Of a stretch of DNA of 64,000 bases, positions 14,836 through 57,832 are shown in pieces. This stretch comes from Polytrichum commune. Taxonomy: Eukaryota; Streptophyta; Polytrichopsida; Polytrichales; Polytrichaceae. The stretch is taken from the NCBI GenBank assembly GCA_950295325.1, contig OX485806.1:20832001-20896000 (forward strand), in the 5' to 3' direction. The position numbers and the translations under genes are program-made. The notes beneath the pieces were generated by a model. That model had not been told where the DNA came from. It saw only the letters and a list, made by a program, of their open reading frames with translations, and ran no database searches. Each line of letters starts with the position of its first letter. Positions within the stretch are counted from its first letter, which is position 1.

Positions 14836-15629
14836 GAAAGAAAAAGAAAAAGAAAAATTACGCCCGTACATTGTACCTACATGAATGCGAGACCGTTGTT
14901 CAAATGCTAAACACGGCGGGCCGTGTTGTAGCATGGGGAGTTATACCTCTTTTGAGAGGTGGGCTCTTGTTAGTAAAAAAGGCAGGCTGAATGCAAAAAG
15001 GGGTAAGAGGTTTAGTTTTTATTTTAGTGGGGTGCGACGGTGTTTTGTTTGTTATCAAGTTTTCTTTTGTTTAATACTAGGTATGTGAGGTATTTAATGT
15101 CATTTTGGTGTATGTTTTTCATGAGGCTTTTGATGCTAGTCTTTGGGATTTTGAGGTCTTCTAATTTTTTAATGGATTGTTCATGCATAGCTCCTCTTAC
15201 TCCTGCTGTGATGGTGGTAAGGGGGTTCGTTTTCCATCCTTTACTTTGTATGGCGTTAATTAGTGGGTCGTATTTGGCGTGTTTTTGTGTGATGGCGTGT
15301 TCGGGGAATCTGTCGTGGCAGTATGTAAATTCAATGAATTGGATTATTTTTGTGTGTGATGGTGACAAGGGTGTCGAGGTGTGGTTAGGGACTCCTATAA
15401 TACATAGGATGTCTGGTCTTAGTCTGGCGTGACATTGACATCTTGTTTGTGGGCATGTACATTCGATGAGCCATTCGGGGACAGTTTGTTCTTGGTTATT
15501 GTTGTTGGTGTTACCTACGTTTGTTAATGTGTAGTATCTGATGTGTTTGTTAGCTTGTAGTGTTTGAGTGATGAGGTGTACTGCCTTGTTGTGTCGTGCT
15601 ATTCTTAGGCCTTTCAAATATGGGTGTTC

Positions 15630-15686
15630 ACACATTGATAGTAGGTGGGGCCACGTGTCTCTGTCATTTTTGTGGCACAGTGTGCA
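15630..15686 (-). other. C-terminal zinc knuckle of LINE ORF2
   Basis: The residues CTLCHKNDRDTWPHLLSMC give C-x2-C-x9-H-x4-C, the cysteine/histidine motif usual near the C-terminus of non-LTR ORF2 proteins. It lies in an open 288-codon stretch ending at 15024. The same motif is found in a second LINE scrap at about 62.6 kb. Confidence 0.75.
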
Positions 15687-16029
15687 GTTTGGGTTTTGGA
15701 ATTTGAGAGGCCAAAAGATGTTCTTTCTGTGGTTGCCCACGTATTGGGTGTAGAGGAATTTTAGAGTTTGGGTGATTTGTGCATCCATTATTTTATTGTT
15801 TTTCCAGAAGTGGTTGGAGAGTTTTTGGTTTATTTGATCGTTGGATAACCATTTATCTACATATGGGTGTTTATGTTGGGCCATCCTCACTTCTTGTTGG
15901 TCGTGTGCTTTTGTTATGAATGTGTGTAGGTTTCGAATTGCTCCGTCCCGTGTGGCGGTGGGGCAACTAGTTAGCCAATAAGGTGTGGCGTGGGCTATGT
16001 GTATATGGGGTGTGGGGGTAGGTTTTTCT

Positions 16030-16440
16030 TTATTTGTTCCCTCATTGGCTAGTGTGTCTGCTATTTCGTTTCCTTTGATGCCCGTATAGGCCCTTACTTT
16101 GTGTATATGGACTAAGTGCGGAGTTAAGTAAATTTGGTGTACTATGGCGGCAATGAGGATTTTGTCCGGGTGGTGGTGTTGTGAGGTTGGGTGTTGTATG
16201 TGAGTACTGAGCAGGTATATGCTATTAAGGCTATTTGTGAATATGTGTGTGTCGGTTTGGGTGGTTTGTATGGTTTTGATAGCGATGAGTATAGCATTTA
16301 ATTCTGCTCTAAGTATGTTTTGGTATCCTGGTAGTCTTTTTGATATGTGAATATTTTTGTTGGGGCTATATACTCCTGATCCTGCGATGTCTCCCTCTAT
16401 TTGACCCTCGGAGTTCCTAGTTGGGGGGGATGAATGACCT
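16030..16440 (-). other. RNase H domain of LINE ORF2
   Basis: The frame reads GSGVYSPN, then RAELNAILIAI (catalytic Glu, about 16307-16290), then FTNSLNSIYLL (about 16241-16221), then KVRAYTGIKGNEIADTLANEG (last catalytic Asp, about 16072-16037). The spacing fits an RNase H type I fold. In the third block the usual Asp (TDS) is Asn (TNS), so this copy has probably lost activity. Confidence 0.75.
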
Positions 16441-17946: not shown

Positions 17947-18272
17947 CCGTAACACCATAGCAAGTTCATCACCTGGCGAACGAATATTTATTTATTTTGA
18001 AAAAATAAGGTTAGTTTGCTAAAAAAATTTTTTTTGAAATTCGTTCTTCTATTTTGAGGAAAAAAAATAATTCGTCCTGGAACAGAGTAGATGTACCGGG
18101 ATGACAACTTAAATTGATTTTTTCAACAGAGTTTGCTTCACCCAACTTTCTGGATTTTCGTTCTTTTCATAATATAATTTTCCATAATTTCGTTCTTCAT
18201 GGCCTGGAATTTCTGATTTTTTTCGTTTTTTTCTTGGAATTATTTAAGAACGAACCTGCTATGGTGTTACGG
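17947..18272. mobile_element. TIR element (MITE) nested in the LINE, TA target site
   Basis: The two ends are inverted copies of CCGTAACACCATAGCA followed by (A/G)GTTC. The flanks are TA at 17945-17946 and 18273-18274, the duplication made by Tc1/mariner-type elements. A 3-bp TAG duplication is also possible. The 326-bp body is AT-rich, holds several GTTCKTT motifs and has no coding capacity. It sits in the ORF2 spacer between the reverse transcriptase and RNase H parts, so it came after the LINE. Confidence 0.85.
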
Positions 18273-18631
18273 TATAGCTTTAGTATCCGAGTTTTAAATT
18301 TGTGTTAGTGTGGTAATGCCGTACATGTATAGTTTATCGAGGTATTTTTGGGTTTTGGCTTTAGATAGGTCTGTGAGAGTGTTATAGTTTGGGTTGGTTT
18401 TCTAGCTTCTTTCTAGTGAAGTTTGTTTAATGGGGAATGTTTGGATTGTAGAGTGGACGTGTATTTCGTATTCTCTTTCAAGAAGAAAGAGCGTTCTAGC
18501 TATGGGTGATCGTACGCATGCTTGTTGTTTGAGTTTGGGGAGGTGACGGGAGCCACCATATTTGGCCGCTATGTGTTTGGTTAGCCCTTGGTAAATAATG
18601 CCTAATTGCCCTAGGTCGTTGAATGCTTGGA

Positions 18632-19820
18632 TTAATTGTTGTCATATGCATCTAATATAGTCGGGCAAGAGTGAGGTTGCATTATGCCAAAATTTTCATG
18701 CGGGAGGTGGGTAAGAATGTTGGATGTGCTTTTGGGAATATTGCAAATTTGTTTGGTTAGTTTGCTAATGATTTTGTCTAATTTTTTAATGTCCGGTTTG
18801 GAAAATGAGACGGCATAGTAGGCATATGTTATTTGGGGTTTAATGACTGTGTTTAGAATTTTGATTTTTTGTGTGAGGCTAGCCGGTGAGCTGGCTAGTA
18901 GTTGGCTTTGTTGTTTGACTTTCTTGATTGTGATTTCGTTTTGTAAGTTCCATATGAGGGACGGTGTAAGATTTATCCCTGAGTATCTATATGGTTCGTT
19001 TTGGGTAAGGATAGGGAAATTTTGGGAGTTATAAGTAATGTGTTGTGATTGGATATATGCTTTAAAGGTGGTGGGTTTTAGTTTAGAGTTATTAGAACAG
19101 CCTGTAATAATACATTTTGAGATGTTAAGGTCCATGTGTGACCATTTCGCGAATTTGTGGAGTTTGGTTATTTGTGGTTGGTTGGATATGTTGTATGTTG
19201 TCCGTGATAATTGCCAAGTCATCTGCATATGTTGTTGTGGTGCATGTGGCGGAGGATGTGTTAAAGTGGTATCCTATATTGTCTTTCTCAAGCCATCTTA
19301 GGAGAGGTTCGAGAAAAATGATAAATAGGTATGGTCTAAGAGTGTCCACTTGTATTGTTCATCGGCTTATTTCTATTGGGAGCGTGGTTCCAAAATAACT
19401 ACCTGTGAAGGATGTGATAGAGTCTATGTAGATGTTTCCTACGATTTCTACTGCATCTAGGGGATAGCCGAAATCCTCCATGATGGCTAAGAGTCTTGTG
19501 TGGTCTATAGAGCCGAAGGCATTTCGAAATTTAATATATGTTAGGTACATGTCTTCTGTAGTTAGTCTTGCATCTTCCAAGGTTGCTATGATCGTTTGGA
19601 TTTGTCTTGATGTGTTGTGTTGTGGTCAGAAGCCTTCTTGGCTAAAATGTAGTAATCTATGTTTTTCCTCATAACTTGTTAGAAGTGTTGTTAGTGTGCT
19701 AGTGTAAAATTTGTGTATTGTGTTGGTTAGTGCGATTGGTCTATAGCTGGATAGGTGGATCGGGTCATTTTTCTTGTGTAGTAAGATGGTCTTGCTATGT
19801 TTCCAGTATTGTGGGATCAT
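18632..19820 (-). other. Reverse transcriptase domain of LINE ORF2
   Basis: Motifs appear in order on the minus strand: HLSSYRPIALTNTIHKFY near 19760, FSQEGF at the end of that block, TYIKFRNAFGSIDH (motif A, about 19540-19500), DTLRPYLFIIFLEPLLRWL (motif B, about 19349-19290), and TYADDLAII (motif C, about 19232-19206). The thumb follows to 18632. In motif A the metal-binding Asp expected before FRNAF is Lys, so this copy's polymerase would be inactive even without the frame breaks. Confidence 0.85.
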
Positions 19821-20883
19821 CCTTTGTTTGTAACAATGTTTGAAGAAGAGGTAGAGGAGGTGTTGTCATTGTGTTGGTAATACTTTGATTATGTCATTTA
19901 GGATGTTATCGGGACCCGGGGTTTTTTCCTTTGGTTAGGCGTTTAATGCAATAATCGTAGACTTCTCTGGTGAATTGGTTACTTATGTGTGTATTAGGGT
20001 TGTTTTTTTTTTCTAAGATAATTCATTGGTGTGAGTGTCATGGGTATTTACGTACTGTACATAGACATGTGTTGGGGTGGTCCGTGATATCATCGCATAA
20101 GGGGGCTTGTCTTTTGAATGATTTTTATTGAATATGGTATATTTTCCTAACTATATCATCAGGTTTGGTGATGATTTGGCTTTGTGGGTTTTGTAGGCAG
20201 TCAAGCGTGCTGGTGGTTGTTGAGTGGAATATCTTCTTGTGGATTATTTTAGGTTTGATATTAAATAAGGTTCTATATTTGGTGATGGTTATTTTGCAAT
20301 TTAGCGTGGTTTGTTTGGTTATGATTTTGTGGGCTTCTATCTTGGCATTTTTTCCTATGGTGGCTAATTGTTCTATCCATGCGCGTATTTGTGTGGGATT
20401 GAGAGGTAGTGGTGGGATATTGGGGGTTTGTATTAGTTGTAGATTTCTTATATCTAGGTTATTGTGGAGGAGGGTGTGGGGGTGGTGGCATGCGGATCTT
20501 ATGGCTTTCCGGGTATTGTGATATGTTTTCAGTTGGTGTTTCCATTTTTTCTGTTGGGTCCTAGGTAGGAATCCTCCTTGGGATTTGACCCTATTAGGTA
20601 GTGGTGGGGTGAGTTGTGACATACATGTTTGTTCGATGCATTGACTATGAGAGTTGGTGATTTCTTGGAGTTTGTGTTGTGCGTCTTCCCATTGTATAAG
20701 GATGAGGTGCTCTTGTTGGAGTATTTGTGTGAGATCTTCTATTGCTAAGTTTTGTTTATCTAGGAAAGTTGTTTGTAGGTTTTGGAGGTTGTTAAGAGGT
20801 ATAGGGTATGTGATTCATGGAGTGTTTGTGAGGATAATGGTTTCTTTAATGACTACTGTGTTGGGGGCTAGTTGCAGTTAAAC

Positions 20884-21829
20884 TGTCGCGCACCTCTCCA
20901 TGAGGAGTGCCCGAAACACCATGGGCACAAGGGGGACCCCGGAGTGACACCCGGGACTTGTGGCGCCGTTGGTGAGAGGGCCCAAGTGATCCTAGTGTGG
21001 GTGAGGGCCCCGGGCGTTGGGAACGCCTCCCACCCAAGAAGATTAGGAGGCACAAGGGTAAGGCCATGAGTTATGCGTAGCTCATGGCGTGGTGATTCTA
21101 GAGAGCTCAAGAACACCTCAATCGGAGGTGTGAGCTAGGAGTTATGGCCATTTGAGTGGGGCGCTGTCTCGGGACAGCGCCCTGGTACAGCAGTGCCTGG
21201 GAGTGATTCCCGGGACTGCCAAGGTTCAAACAGGCATAACTTCCCCAAGACTTGCCCGAATGGGGCAAGTGAGGAGTCCATCGGCATCTACGTGAAGCGT
21301 AGATGAAGATGAAGTGATTGGTTGTTCTGATCGGACATCATACAAGGAAGTTATGATGGTCTGAAGCTGCTGGGGGGGTTCTAGGCCCAGCAGCTAAAGG
21401 GAAATGTCCACTTGGCCCCAACTCTTGGTAGAGAGACAAGAGGTTGGTTGACGGTGGGGTAGGGGCCCCGCGTGAAGTCCTAGAGGCTTATATGGGTGAG
21501 GTGGTGTGGCCTCACCCACCCGAGGCCGAACGGCAAGGCCTCCATGGGCTTTGGCCTATTGTGAGGCCATAGTTGCCTAGTATGCTTCGGGTTGTTGTAG
21601 TGTTGCTCCGGCAACGCGATGATCAACATAGGATTGGGGAAATGGGTTACCGATTGAGGGATGAGTCCCGAAAGCAAAGTAGGAGGGTTGGTTCCCTCCT
21701 ATGAACTATTGGTCCGGGGTAAGAGGAGCTATCCATTAGCATGGCGGAATGCGAAGGGTTAGCGCTCGTAACCTTTGCTAGAAACGAAAATTGGCAAGAT
21801 TATTAAGGGACCTAGCAAGGGTTGCGACA
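20884..21829. mobile_element. Solo-LTR-like element (LTR retrotransposon fossil) nested in the LINE
   Basis: The element begins TGTCGC and ends GCGACA, the TG...CA inverted ends of LTRs. It is flanked on both sides by TAAAC (20879-20883 and 21830-21834), a 5-bp target duplication. It is 946 bp, GC-rich against an AT-rich background, and packed with perfect short hairpins, for example GGCGCTGTC/GACAGCGCC around 21158-21181 and CATCTACG/CGTAGATG around 21284-21304. No protein-coding part and no second LTR were seen, so a solo LTR or a very small non-autonomous element fits. It is younger than the LINE it split. Its orientation is unknown. Confidence 0.75.
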
Positions 21830-22570
21830 TAAACCTGGTAATGGTCCGAGTTTTGATTTAAGTTAGTTAGCGTGTGGTTTGAATATTAGGGGCATTGGGG
21901 GCATTGGTGTAGAAGCCATCTATATGGCTTGTTGATGTGTAGTTGTGGCCCCCTTGACGTGTGAAGTTTATTGGGTTATTAATCACCTTGAGTCGATTGT
22001 TGTATGTGAAGCGGGCCCATTCTTGGTCATCCGTGTTAGGCGGAATTATTGTACCATTGTTGGTTCGCCTTATTAGTAATATGTCGCGGTTAAAGTCGCC
22101 CGATAGTATGGTTGTGTGGTTAGGGTGTTGTAATGTGATATTATGAATTTGATTTTGGATTTCAGGTATGAGATGCGCGTCTTCTAGGTGTGATGGCATG
22201 TACATGTTTAGGATGATTATTGGTGTTAGTGGTTTGCTATTGAGTATTATGGCTTGAAGATATGATGATATTGTACTAGGGGTTGGCAATTTAATTATGT
22301 TTTCGTTTATATATATTGGTATTGGTATCATGGCTAGTATGCCGCCTCTAGGTTGTGTGGGGCCCGTGTATCTATTGTGTTGTTGGAGTTGTTGTATATG
22401 ATTTTGTAGTCTGGTAGTAGGTGGTCTATGTATGATGTGGATTTTGTTTTTGGGATTTTGGTTTCTTGGATGACTATAATGTGTGGGTTAGTGTGTAGTG
22501 TTCGTGTAAGTTTTTGGATACCAGGTAGGCTAGAGTTAATGCATCCGGTATTCCAGGTGATGATTTTCAA
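21830..22570 (-). other. AP endonuclease domain of LINE ORF2
   Basis: The domain starts MKIITWNTGC, then HIIVIQETKIP (catalytic Glu), then NMYMPSHLED, then LSGDFNRDILL (GDFN motif), then STSHIDGFYTN, and ends with NSDHYQV beside the TAAAC target site of the nested LTR-like element. All main motifs of the exonuclease-endonuclease-phosphatase fold used by APE-type LINEs are visible. A frame change lies between the QETK and NMYMPSHL parts. Confidence 0.8.
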
Positions 22571-23183
22571 GGTTTGAGTGGATGGGTTGTTTGGTCTAGT
22601 GTGGATTTGTGGGGTGTCGTAATTATGTGTTGTATTTGTGGTGGAGTGGTATCCTTTTTATTTTTGGGTGCATTTGGTTAGTTCTTGTATTATTTTTTGT
22701 GGGCGGTGTGGTAGTTCATTTTTTAGGCTTTCAGATGTTGTGGGTAATCCCTTAGCAATTTTGTCGTTGATGATGGAGTAGGCCTATGGTATGGTAGTTG
22801 TTGTTGTGGTATGGTGGGGGTAGGTTTCGCATGTTGTGTTTGAATGTATGTTCATTGGAACTTTTTGGAGTCTTCGTAGAATGGTTAAACATCTTGGGTC
22901 AGGTCTATTGGCCATTTGTTGATTACAAACTTGTGGTATGGGGTTGTAGGCTATTATTAGTGCATACCGTTGGTGGTGTGGGATATTTTGCGAGGAGTGC
23001 GCTATGTTTTTGCAGGTGTGTAAGGTCTTGATTTCGGTGACTAGCGTTTGTTTGGGATATGTAGGGTTCGAATTCTTTCTCTAGGTGTGCATATTGAGAT
23101 TTGAGTTCTAGGGTGTTTGGTATAAAGTATTGTTTTTGCCTACACATGTATTCTAGGGGGAGGTGTGTGAGGATGTTTGTTAG

Positions 23184-23210
23184 TGGTCCTGGGTTGGTCT
23201 CAATGTCACC
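23184..23210 (-). other. 2A-type ribosome-skipping peptide motif in LINE ORF2
   Basis: Minus-strand codons at 23210-23184 spell GDIETNPGP, an exact match to the 2A core D-(V/I)-E-x-N-P-G-P. It is preceded by SILILIH, the aliphatic stretch seen before most 2A cores. The motif lies in a frame open for about 200 codons, between the end of ORF1 (23874) and the endonuclease (from 22570). In known 2A peptides the ribosome fails to join the last Gly and Pro and continues, releasing the upstream product. Whether this one works is not shown by the sequence. Confidence 0.8.
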
Positions 23211-23873
23211 GTGTATTAGGATGAGGATAGAGTTATTCCATGTGTAGTACTGTATGGTTTTAGTCTTCGGGGTTTTGTGATGTGTGTGAGTTATGTAGTA
23301 TATGCTACCTATGTGTGTTATTGTGTTGATGGGAATGTGTGGGGAGGTTGGTTTGTTTTGGGTGTGATGTTGGTTGTTATGTGTGTGGTGAGATGTATTG
23401 TGTGTGTGTGTTGTGCTCGTCTTATGGTTTGTTGGTGGGGGTGCAGTGTGTGTTGGGGAGAATATTTGTGGGTTTGTTGATGTGCTTGAGTGGTGGTGAT
23501 TAAATATACCTTCTAGTATGTCAAATAATGTCTTATTATTTGGGGTTGTATTGTTGGTTCTATAGGGGGTGGTATATTATTGTGTGGGATTTGTGATTGT
23601 GTGAGGTCGGGTGGGTGGTTGAGGAGGAGACATGTAAGGCCTAGGAGTGTTAGTGTGTATTTTGTTTGGAAGTTCGGAGTGGATTTTGTGTGGAGATTTC
23701 TATTGGTGTGTGTGGAACTTGGAGGGGTGTAGATGTAGGCCATGTAAATGAGAAATAATATTTTTTCTTTATTATATAGGAAACAAAAAATACAACATAT
23801 AAGGGGTAAGGACCATTGATGGTGTTGCATGTGGCTACTATCCATTAAAGTTGTTAGTTTCTTGATGGTGCAT

Positions 23874-25577
23874 TTATGGGTTGCCGTGGAACCCCGGGGG
23901 GGCTTGTAGGGGGAGCGGTGGGGCGGTCACGTTGTGTCCTTGTGGTAGCGGAGGTGGGGCGGTTTTTTGTAAGATTTCCGGTGCGGCGGCGGAGAGGCCG
24001 CTAACAATGCCTTCCATCCGGAGGTTGAATTGTTGAAATTCGTGGACGATCGTACCGAAGAGCGCTTGGAGGTTGGCGGTGTGGTGTGTGATCGTGGCCG
24101 TAGTTGCCTTGAATCTACGGTCCGTGTGGTTGTTAATGGTGGTGGTTAGCGTGCCAAACTTCTCATCCAACTTGTCTTTGAACTCCTTCATGGCTTTGGT
24201 GAGGTATTTTTCGGTGAGGGCCGGGTTGGAGTTTGTGACATTGGTCATGGCTTGAATCTTGTCCGCTATTGCCTCTCTTACGGGTGCTTGTGCTAGCCGG
24301 ATCGTTGTCTTATTGGGGTATATGCCATCGATGCTCCCGCGGTAAGGTATGAAATCTATGCGCCGTCTAAGTATGTAGGCGGATTTGTGGAGCCACTCCG
24401 TATAGACCGCGGCGTTGAGACATTGGATGTGGCACCAACCCGCTTGCTTGTCGGTGTGGTTGTTATTATCGAAGCTAATGTCAACTATGTTCTCCACTCT
24501 GAATGTTTGCTTGATGACCTTTGAGATGGTAGTTTGGATTTCACATTGTGGAAGATTGTTGGCAACGAGTGTGGTGCTAATGCGTAACTCTGATGGGTTA
24601 CCGGTACATTGGTCCCGGGTGATACTAACTTGAAGTTTCTCTTGGTTGAAGGCGATTTCGTCTTTGACCACGTTGTCCCTAGATTCTTCCGTAGTGAGGG
24701 TGACAAATGCATAGTTTTTATCTACCTCTGGTTTGGTAAGTCCCATCAATTCATGTTGCTCGTCTATGTAATAGCTCTCATATACTAATGGTTCAAAAAT
24801 ATTGAATGCATGCTCATGTCGGAGGGTTTCTCCTTTGAGGTGTAAGCGTAGGTTACTAGCCTTGGTGACTACTTTATATCCTTTCTCTACCTTACCTATT
24901 ACCTTCTCTCCATCCTCCATCTCCATGGCAAATGCCCTATGGCCATGGAGGATTGCTAGTTCATCTCTCTTTGGGTGTAATAGATGCACTTTTATGAAAC
25001 CCGTCCAATTTTTGGTAACGGCATTGATTCTTATGTCAAGAGGGTTGGAGTATGTGTTACCAAATAGGATGTCCATTTGTTGAAGCCGTTCTAGGTACGC
25101 AATCCTCGCCTCATGTCGACTAATGCCCTTGAAGCCGTGGTCGAAGCGGATGGTGATGTGGAATCCTTCGGAGAGGCCGGTGGTTGGGTCTATCTTTTCT
25201 AGTCTCGGAATTTGGATGAAGTGGAGGTGGTGCCCCGGGACCGCATCCGGTCTCTCTCTCGGGTAGTACGTTTGAGGTACGTGGGGGAATGGTCTTCGGA
25301 GGGTGCGAAAGTCGATAATCTCTCTTGAGGGGGTCCCAATCTTGGCAAACTCCTCATTAGTGCGAGTTTCACGTATGATCTCGGTCCCTCTATGTAATGT
25401 CATGGCCTCATGAATAGGAAAACCTAGCCACATGTGTGATACTATGTCTATGCTTGGAATTGCCATCTTGTTGCGAGTGATTTGGTGCTTACTAGTACCG
25501 GCATTAAATGCATGTGTGTCCATCTCATTCTTCCTTCTCTTGGCGCTTTGAATGTTGGTGGTGTTGTCATTGTGCAT
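23874..25577 (-). CDS. LINE ORF1 protein, 567 codons, open
   Basis: ORF1 proteins of LINEs bind the element RNA and help it reach the target. This one has no gag-type CCHC knuckle. Residues about 330-425 (LRISTTLVANNLPQCEI to RRRIDFIPYRGS) look like an RNA-recognition-type fold, which is a weak call. Residues about 450-535 form a heptad-rich coiled coil (EKYLTKAMKEFKDKLDEKFG). The end is Pro-rich (PPPLPQGHN, PPLPLQAPPGF). Upstream of the Met the same frame carries protein-like sequence (YSDEDEEERTINGQQ, QDYDIDMQLEDISLEHG) with one stop about 15 codons before the Met. The ancestral ORF1 therefore probably started near or beyond 26 kb. Confidence 0.7.
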   Translation of the reverse strand: MHNDNTTNIQSAKRRKNEMDTHAFNAGTSKHQITRNKMAIPSIDIVSHMWLGFPIHEAMTLHRGTEIIRETRTNEEFAKIGTPSREIIDFRTLRRPFPHVPQTYYPRERPDAVPGHHLHFIQIPRLEKIDPTTGLSEGFHITIRFDHGFKGISRHEARIAYLERLQQMDILFGNTYSNPLDIRINAVTKNWTGFIKVHLLHPKRDELAILHGHRAFAMEMEDGEKVIGKVEKGYKVVTKASNLRLHLKGETLRHEHAFNIFEPLVYESYYIDEQHELMGLTKPEVDKNYAFVTLTTEESRDNVVKDEIAFNQEKLQVSITRDQCTGNPSELRISTTLVANNLPQCEIQTTISKVIKQTFRVENIVDISFDNNNHTDKQAGWCHIQCLNAAVYTEWLHKSAYILRRRIDFIPYRGSIDGIYPNKTTIRLAQAPVREAIADKIQAMTNVTNSNPALTEKYLTKAMKEFKDKLDEKFGTLTTTINNHTDRRFKATTATITHHTANLQALFGTIVHEFQQFNLRMEGIVSGLSAAAPEILQKTAPPPLPQGHNVTAPPLPLQAPPGFHGNP

Positions 25578-27586
25578 GGATGTTGGAGGGGTCCTATCGG
25601 CTAGGTTGATAGCTTATAGACGTGATAACGGTATGTCGGCTTGATTGGGAGTGGTCGCATACTCGTCCCTTGATGTGGAAAGTTGAAGGGAGCTCCCACC
25701 GTGCTCGAGTGAGATGTCCTCTAATTGCATGTCGATATCGTAGTCTTGTGAAGGGGGGGCCATCTCCTTCACATTGGTGAGTTGGTTTGCTTGTTGCCCG
25801 TTTATGGTTCTCTCTTCTTCGTCTTCATCGCTATAGTTGCCTAGTAGTGCTCTCCTTCTAGTACCGCTCCTTGTTTTTCTGTCGTCGCCGCTCTCGCTCC
25901 TCTTGCTGGAGTCGTTGGCTCTCCTGGTCCCGGGCCCCAGTCTTTTACCGTAGCCGCTGGTTCATCTGGCCTCGGCCCTGTCCTTATCTCCTTCGCCGAT
26001 CATGCCTTCGCTCCCGACCACGGCCCCTCCTCGACCGCTGCCTTCGACGCCGGGTTGTCCACCTCCTTCGACGTCGATCCTCCCTTCGCTCATGCCAGCC
26101 TTGCTCTCACTTCTTTCTGGCATGTTGTTGTATGTCCATTGTAGCTGCTTGCCCGTGTGTCGCTGCTATCCCATGAGGTCAGTGTCTGTGCCGCCTCTCG
26201 TTCTGGTTGCGGAGTCTGCTCCAGTGTTCTCTGTTGGGATCTTGTGGGCTTCTCTACTGGTGGCCATGATGGTGAATAGGGAGGTGTGGGAGAGATGGAT
26301 GGTGGAGAGTGTGGGAGGCGAGGGTATTTGAGTGAGAGAATGTGGCATTGTAGATGGGTGGCAGTATGTTGTTTTTGGGTGTGTGAGTTGTCTTGTGAGA
26401 TTTGCTTTGGGGGTTTCGGCAATTTTAGGTTGGTGCGAGTTGTGTGTTGTATTTTTGGCCTTGGTGTGTCTTGGTGAGGTGGGTTTTGTCTTAGATTGGG
26501 ATGTTGCATGCTTTGTGTGTGGTGGGTTTTTTGTTGGGAGGGCGATTTTTAGGTTTGAGGGTGGTGGATGTGTGTATGTGACGGCGTTTTGGTTGTATCT
26601 TGTGTGGTTTTTAATGGATTTCTTTATGGGAGTGCTAGACCATCTTTATGTGGCGGAGCTTGGAGCTCCAATGTGGTTGTTTTGGAGGTAAGTTTATAGA
26701 TAGTTTGTTTTTTGTTTTATGGTGGCTTTTGGTGGGAATGAGTTTTTGGTGGGTGCAAGTGGCTTTACTTACCTTGATGTGTGTGGTTTTGTGTTGTGTG
26801 GGTGGTGGCGGCGATATGGATGTGTGTGAAGTACATTCCGAGCTTGGAGGTGGCCTTGTGGTGGAGGAGTATCGATTTGATGAGTAGTGAGTTGATGGTT
26901 GTATTGGGTGTTGGGGGTAGCTTGGTGGGTAGATTGTGGAGGGTAGTATTGATGAGTAGGCATTGTGGAGCTTTGGGTGGCAACATCTTAGTGGATAGAT
27001 TGTGGGTGATATCTTTGGTGGTAGCTTGGTGGGTAGATGATGGGAGTGAGCATTGATGGATAGGCATTGTGGTGTGTGGAAGCACACAAGGCAATGGTGC
27101 TTATTAGCACCCATAATATATGAAAGGGTGAAACCCTATTATGGTTGGTGTATGTTGGTGTAGTTCCTCTCCTTCCTTCTTTCTTTCCTAGATCTAGATC
27201 TAGGTTTCGTCTGTCTGTTGTGCTTCCCTGATGTTCTGTTGCGGCTTCGATAGGGCCCCTCCTTCTAATCTGCGGTGGTCTGCGCTGCTGCTGTGCTGTG
27301 CTAAGTCCGGTGTCGGGGGCAAGGTGGGCGGTCTTCTTTGCTTGCTGGTGCTCCGTCCGGCTTCGTGATCGCACGTGGGTTGTTAGGGCGTCTCATGTGT
27401 TTCTCTTGTTCTCGCTCAGCTTACTACCTTGCTTATCTCCTGTTGTTGTTGTGGGTGCCGCTCCTACGGCTGCTACTGGTGCTTCCTTGTTGTGCTGCGC
27501 ACTCACCGTAGCGGCGAGCTCCCTCCGCCTCATTCCTAGTCCGACTATCATCATTACTAAACTCGATACAATGTTTTTTTTTTTTG
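25578..27586 (-). other. LINE 5' leader with short tandem units
   Basis: The leader starts at the A-run beside the right target duplication. Minus-strand sequence at about 27075-26920 holds two degenerate units of about 100 bp, each with CACAATGCCTA, CATCAAT, and CTACCCACCAAGCTACC. Monomer-like 5' repeats are known from other LINEs and often hold the promoter, so this may be the promoter region. The long ORFs over it, on both strands, are compositional (Thr/Pro/His/Ser-rich or their antisense) and are not called. Confidence 0.55.

Positions 27587-55984: not shown

Positions 55985-57832
<1,848 letters not shown>

Follow-up and report, generated by a model that had tools for sequence, protein, structure and literature searches.

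Judged from its sequence, ORF2 of a multicopy, Dualen-like LINE in the genome of the moss Polytrichum commune very probably carries a functional-type StopGo/2A signal, at which an N-terminal leader would be released. In L1Tc and in animal APE-type elements, 2As are situated on the N-terminal side, before the endonuclease, and the window (the whole 64,000-nucleotide stretch of DNA that was analysed) contains a decayed LINE in which a motif with a canonical core precedes the AP endonuclease. The original prediction had placed GDIETNPGP at 23184–23210, ahead of the endonuclease and in an open frame of about 200 codons; the motif was confirmed at this place, on the minus strand (the strand had been left unstated), and together with its upstream context YYTWNNSILILIH it sits in an open frame of 217 codons (22923–23576, minus strand). 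It conforms to the StopGo/2A core (D/G/C/N)(V/I)ExNPGP and, after scanning both strands of the element region, proved to be confined to the minus strand. The position ahead of the AP endonuclease is likewise borne out by a PF14529 match downstream in the window, which lies above the profile cut-off in the related copy L021. The parts of the window copy are the following:

23874–25613, minus strand: ORF1, open over 579 aa and with its first Met at 25577 (open-frame list and comparison with relatives)
23838–23845, minus strand: ATGGATAG, in which the start codon of ORF2 overlaps the TAG used by relatives to end ORF1
23211–23845, minus strand: leader region of ORF2, ahead of the 2A and with a broken frame
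23211–23249, minus strand: upstream 2A context YYTWNNSILILIH, an aliphatic run (translation)
23184–23210, minus strand: 2A core GDIETNPGP, p11–p19 (translation of the minus strand)
22571–23183, minus strand: conserved domain between the 2A and the AP endonuclease
21833–22570, minus strand: AP endonuclease region (Exo_endo_phos_2, PF14529), broken
20880–21832, no strand assigned: 953-bp insertion within the element (sequence contiguous in L021, L010, L019, and L028)
18333–20076, minus strand: reverse transcriptase (RT) region, broken, with YADD from 19229
17947–18261, no strand assigned: second insertion within the element, about 315 bp (comparison with relatives)
16038–16385, minus strand: RNase H domain (PF00075, E 6.1e-10, residues 42–157 of a 494-aa frame)
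15027–15776, minus strand: C-terminal CCHC motif and restriction-like endonuclease (RLE) motif (sequence motifs)
14842–15026, minus strand: 3′ UTR (conserved hairpins, pyrimidine-rich tail)

On the minus strand, the element covers at least the stretch from ORF1 down to about 14842. This copy is decayed and non-functional, with an early ORF1 stop, broken leader and RT frames, and two insertions. ORF1 ends in a TAA at 23874–23876, earlier than the TAG that relatives use, the leader region is split over open frames 23516–23926 and 22926–23576, and the broken AP endonuclease matches PF14529 with E 3.5e-5 and 24.1 bits, under the cut-off of 27.4. On the same strand, the CCHC motif reads CTLC at 15675–15686, and the RLE-like motif comprises RPDILC (15402–15419), IEFTYC (15318–15335), and KYDPLI (15258–15275). 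The stretch holding the insertion at 20880–21832 is richer in GC than its surroundings. A 3′ UTR hairpin and pyrimidine-rich tail are common to the window and the 3′ ends of L010, L017, and L025, with compensatory changes in the hairpin recognised by eye (AACACGG/CCGTGTT, ATCACGG/CCGTGAT, and ATCAGGG/CCCTGAT). Elsewhere in the window, a 615-codon open frame (55985–57832, minus strand) resembles, by motifs read by eye, a DEAD-box RNA helicase.

The domain order can be followed in better preserved copies. ORF2 of L021 yields an AP endonuclease with both PF03372 (residues 456–700, 26.2 bits, cut-off 24.5) and PF14529 (37.7 bits, cut-off 27.4), and RVT_1 follows at residues 1071–1295, so that the AP endonuclease lies upstream of the RT. 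The RNase H of the window reaches 39.9 bits with PF00075 (cut-off 25.8), and in L025 a single frame of 1,672 codons holds YADD, the RNase H motif TDGS, the CCHC motif, and KPD. An RT profile built from three copies was searched against the PDB, where it matched R2 proteins, at best with E 8.6e-32, but none of L1 up to E 10. Among these PDB sequences, which included no plant L1, the RT is thus not nearest to L1, as it should be in a plant L1 LINE. At the C-terminus, the CCHC and (R/K)PD..E..KY motifs are kept in six aligned copies (L019 has PN for PD). The RLE assignment rests on these motifs because a C-terminal profile, searched against the PDB up to E 5, matched just two R2 sequences (E 1.4 and 1.5, in the knuckle region); a fold prediction for this part had a pLDDT of 35 and was not used. 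Taken together, AP endonuclease, R2-like RT, RNase H, and the C-terminal CCHC/RLE-like motif correspond, as far as profiles and motifs can tell, to a Dualen/RandI-like anatomy. The first description of Dualen reportedly included a cysteine protease domain. In PMC4640811, which like the other papers cited here is represented by excerpts, Dualen is described as encoding both APE and RLE, and Dualen/RandI as possessing RNase H. By this description, the combination of AP endonuclease, RT, RNase H, and (in the moss family a putative) RLE in one element is shared with the moss family, whereas a 2A, present in the latter, is not mentioned in the excerpts.

All family counts derive from a single genome assembly (407.8 Mb in 64 contigs, seven of them large). 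That the host is a plant, as had been claimed, is supported by matches to the two LEAFY domains, SAM_LFY (four) and C_LFY_FLO (six), whereas 14 control genomes gave no match to either; LEAFY is not known outside plants and their algal relatives. These matches fall into three or four loci on contigs C1 and C7, and a fragment, L115, reads KMRHYVHC. Within the assembly, a 108-aa stretch of the element has at least 154 matches at E ≤0.001, a lower bound since 150 of 729 first-look candidates were scored. The degenerate DNA pattern for G-D-[I/V]-[E/H/Q/K/N/D]-x-N-P-G-P occurs 420 times, counted whatever the family, as opposed to 0 times for the same pattern reversed, which argues against chance matches (calculated by hand for equal base frequencies, the expectation is about 0.2). 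No relatives were confirmed in the one scan made of viral contigs.

Conservation of the core was assessed in 101 records (100 fetched stretches, L009–L108, plus the window) with 121 core sites, 113 of them distinct; the underlying query contained the 2A and hence favours copies that keep it. NPGP is intact in 95 of the 113 sites. The published canonical core is matched by 44, and 91 fit a core widened to accept M at p13 and H, Q, or K at p14. Among the 18 sites that have lost NPGP, mostly a core proline is changed (NLGP in six, NPGS in three, NSGP in two), and two losses (L076 and L077) are probably misplaced by a frameshift. For codon tests, 15 of the 113 sites were removed for stops and the remaining 98 thinned to 50 representatives of <92 % identity. 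Between the 76 closest pairs, pN/pS amounts to 0.10 in the core (0.03 without p14 and p15) vs. 0.37 in the flanks; over all 1,225 pairs the values are 0.21 (0.09) and 0.57, with pS close to saturation in these wider sets. Among 61 nine-codon windows, pN/pS is lowest in the core whichever of three distance cuts is applied. The original prediction had named a core that drifts as fast as its flanks, or that is missing from other family members, as what would refute it; this check did not refute it. The YYTWNNSILILIH region ranks as the second most constrained of the regions compared. Since pN/pS is lowest in the core while pS is not reduced there (0.50 vs. 0.40 in the flanks, closest pairs), the codon pattern argues that selection acts on the 2A peptide.

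A less biased check employed the domain after the 2A as sole query, which returned 150 matches. The 27 on contig C1 were examined, this being the only contig whose set of core places (92) appears complete. A core was located no more than 12 bases from its predicted place in 19 of the 27 (exactly there in 17), and in 16 of the 22 matches free of stops. Eight of the 27 had no core there, one of which is truncated and starts at query residue 54.

Position 14 is variable among the 95 NPGP-intact sites, with E in 45, Q in 24, H in 23, and K in three, i.e., Q, H, or K in 50. According to PMC12846837, activity exceeds 95 % for H at p14 where this residue occurs naturally; E14Q retains partial activity (56 % or 26 %) in viral contexts. 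Among the longest open frames, some have Q and H (2,409 and 1,905 codons) and others E (2,422 and 2,131 codons). It has also been reported that 2A activity needs more upstream sequence than the core (PMC12846837). Across the 113 distinct sites, a leucine/isoleucine-rich run immediately precedes the core, with G at p11 in 107 and D at p12 in 105; as judged by composition, the upstream context of the family resembles the L-rich motifs presented in that paper and has the G at p11 that suits a D at p12.

Upstream of the 2A, the junction of the two reading frames was compared in 27 records. In 15 of them, an ATG and the stop of the ORF1 frame overlap as ATGNNTAG, and the frame that begins there has a similar N-terminus. 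This junction also occurs in L022 and the window, where the ORF1 frame is broken, and it is absent in 10. In eight records (L015, L019, L020, L021, L022, L110, L111, and L114), a single open frame holds both the start ATG and the 2A, whereas in the other 19 the frame of the leader is interrupted or no start was found. NPGP follows about 170–430 codons after the ATG in these eight, and the leader of roughly 100 residues that had been predicted must accordingly be lengthened. Past its first 30 codons, the leader is fast evolving and weakly constrained (pN/pS about 0.7 between subfamilies). In L114, two successive ORF2-like starts lie in one frame (ATGGATAG at 901 and ATGAATAG at 1663), which suggests a duplicated leader module.

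One subfamily with a different upstream sequence (L112+L108 and L096–L108) keeps GDIESNPGP in 12 of the 12 copies examined. It is young, because ten of these copies are 97.3–99.8 % identical; the substitution ratio is 0.54 in the ten and 2.26 with two more copies that contain stops and probable indels. The leader of L112+L108 (one copy read) consists of HPKYK-like repeats and, ahead of the 2A, runs without a stop for at least 770 codons.

Two further ideas about the leader were discarded. Its N-terminus (MDS..HKW....IC....YNK) looks hydrophobic; however, translations in the other two frames often reach an equal hydropathy, and a signal peptide is therefore not claimed. An ORF1–ORF2 fusion parted by the 2A would apply to L010 and L024, the only copies in which ORF1 and the 2A were seen in a single open frame; it is not regarded as the plan of the family, because in the other copies with start and 2A in one frame, ORF2 starts at the overlapping ATG in another frame than ORF1.

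More than one 2A site is present in 18 of the 101 records, giving 20 neighbouring pairs; this is not a rate, as longer stretches were fetched where two matches were listed and several of the records are close relatives. Seventeen of the 20 pairs are in frame, 53–267 codons apart, and 15 of these 17 have no intervening stop. Some pairs contain a defective core (NPGA, NPGQ, NSGP, NPDP, or GAIHTNPGP). On C1, 11 of 12 short spacings between cores are multiples of three (P about 5e-5, under an assumption of independence that related copies do not meet). Three 2As lie within one open frame in L113+L032, and in the copy at C1:44784928 a 2,409-codon frame spans the overlapping ATG and two 2As, with predicted products of 173, 154, and 2,055 residues counted from this ATG (first part of the frame read).

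From the motif, its position and frame, its conservation, and its arrays, we infer the following course of expression. After translation of ORF1, ribosomes would restart at the AUG that overlaps the ORF1 stop (ATGNNTAG) and synthesise the fast-evolving leader of about 170–430 residues. At the 2A, the leader, now ending in NPG, would be let go, and translation would resume with proline as first residue of a long AP endonuclease–RT–RNase H–RLE protein. Where a copy has two or three 2As in frame, it would presumably release as many leader pieces. Ribosomal skipping, separate products, and any role of the leader are likewise predictions from sequence.

The main rival to such leader release, given that some viral 2As end translation, is an attenuator, i.e., a 2A at which translation often ends without resuming, so that its main effect would be to keep ORF2 protein scarce and not to separate two useful products. 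In multi-2A picornaviruses, some 2As apparently act in this manner, the downstream product being undetectable (PMC11512398), and tandem sites, Q or K at p14, and a weakly constrained leader would all suit attenuation. We nevertheless regard it as unlikely, since 44 of the 113 sites match the published canonical core and the variants assayed in PMC12846837 are mostly efficient. It is more doubtful still that NPGP owes its conservation to a role in the fold of the ORF2 protein, without skipping. Recognisable conservation extends into the domain that follows the motif, but constraint on the core is far stronger than on this adjoining domain, the residues at p14 include those reported to be active, and the motif persists beside quite different upstream sequence and recurs in frame within single elements. 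The dead window copy might finally be taken for a chance match or a relic free of selection, a reading that the 420 matches vs. none for the reversed pattern and the core pN/pS among the closest pairs leave with a negligible probability. Release of a leader by a functional-type 2A is the reading that we prefer.

2As are known from LINEs of trypanosomes and animals (PMC12846837, PMC4981915, PMC11512398, PMC5972666). As here, L1Tc of Trypanosoma cruzi as well as sea urchin and other animal APE-type elements have D(V/I)ExNPGP in the endonuclease–RT frame. The moss family differs from them by its plant host, an RT nearer to R2 than to L1, the RNase H, the C-terminal RLE-like motif, the overlapping ORF1/ORF2 junction, the natural H, Q, and K at p14, and the tandem 2As. 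Several 2As per frame, with tracts of about 50–150 residues of unassigned function between them, are described for picornaviruses of the Paavivirinae (PMC11512398), these being RNA viruses and not retrotransposons of a plant genome with an integration enzyme as downstream product. The silkworm LINE SART1 couples ORF1 and ORF2 by termination–reinitiation at an overlap of the form UAAUG (PMC5972666), whereas the order of overlap in the moss family is ATGNNTAG and coupling is suggested by sequence features. In sea urchin NLR proteins, a 2A closes an N-terminal leader, so that the products are partly fused and partly separate, and these 2A signal sequences are active in plant cells too (PMC4981915); a signal-peptide character of the leader, in contrast, is unsupported in the moss family.

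StopGo works in plant cells when introduced (PMC12846837), and the excerpts of this 2026 survey report no evidence of its use by plant viruses, six apparent cases being ascribed to host misclassification. A limited search of the open-licence literature retrieved neither a 2A in a plant LINE nor a natural plant StopGo element. As far as this search reaches, the plant host, the dual-endonuclease anatomy, and the natural p14 variants and tandem sites in a LINE are new.

With so many conserved sites in the genome of one plant, the family would constitute natural plant use of StopGo. For LINE biology, a 2A is here added to a dual-endonuclease anatomy, and a stop–start junction may be linked to 2A separation. 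The family moreover represents a natural variant set, which differs in p14 (E, H, Q, or K), in the number of sites (single or tandem), and in upstream context. A bolder proposal, plausible but tentative, is that, in this plant retrotransposon lineage, StopGo serves as a switch by which expression of a polyprotein can be tuned. Modules with a 2A would have been duplicated, and perhaps exchanged between subfamilies, into in-frame arrays of two or three; the residue at p14 (E, H, Q, or K), which differs between subfamilies, would set the efficiency of separation and, together with stop–start coupling, the amount of free endonuclease–RT. If this were true, the moss family would be a case of natural, long-maintained StopGo use in a plant.
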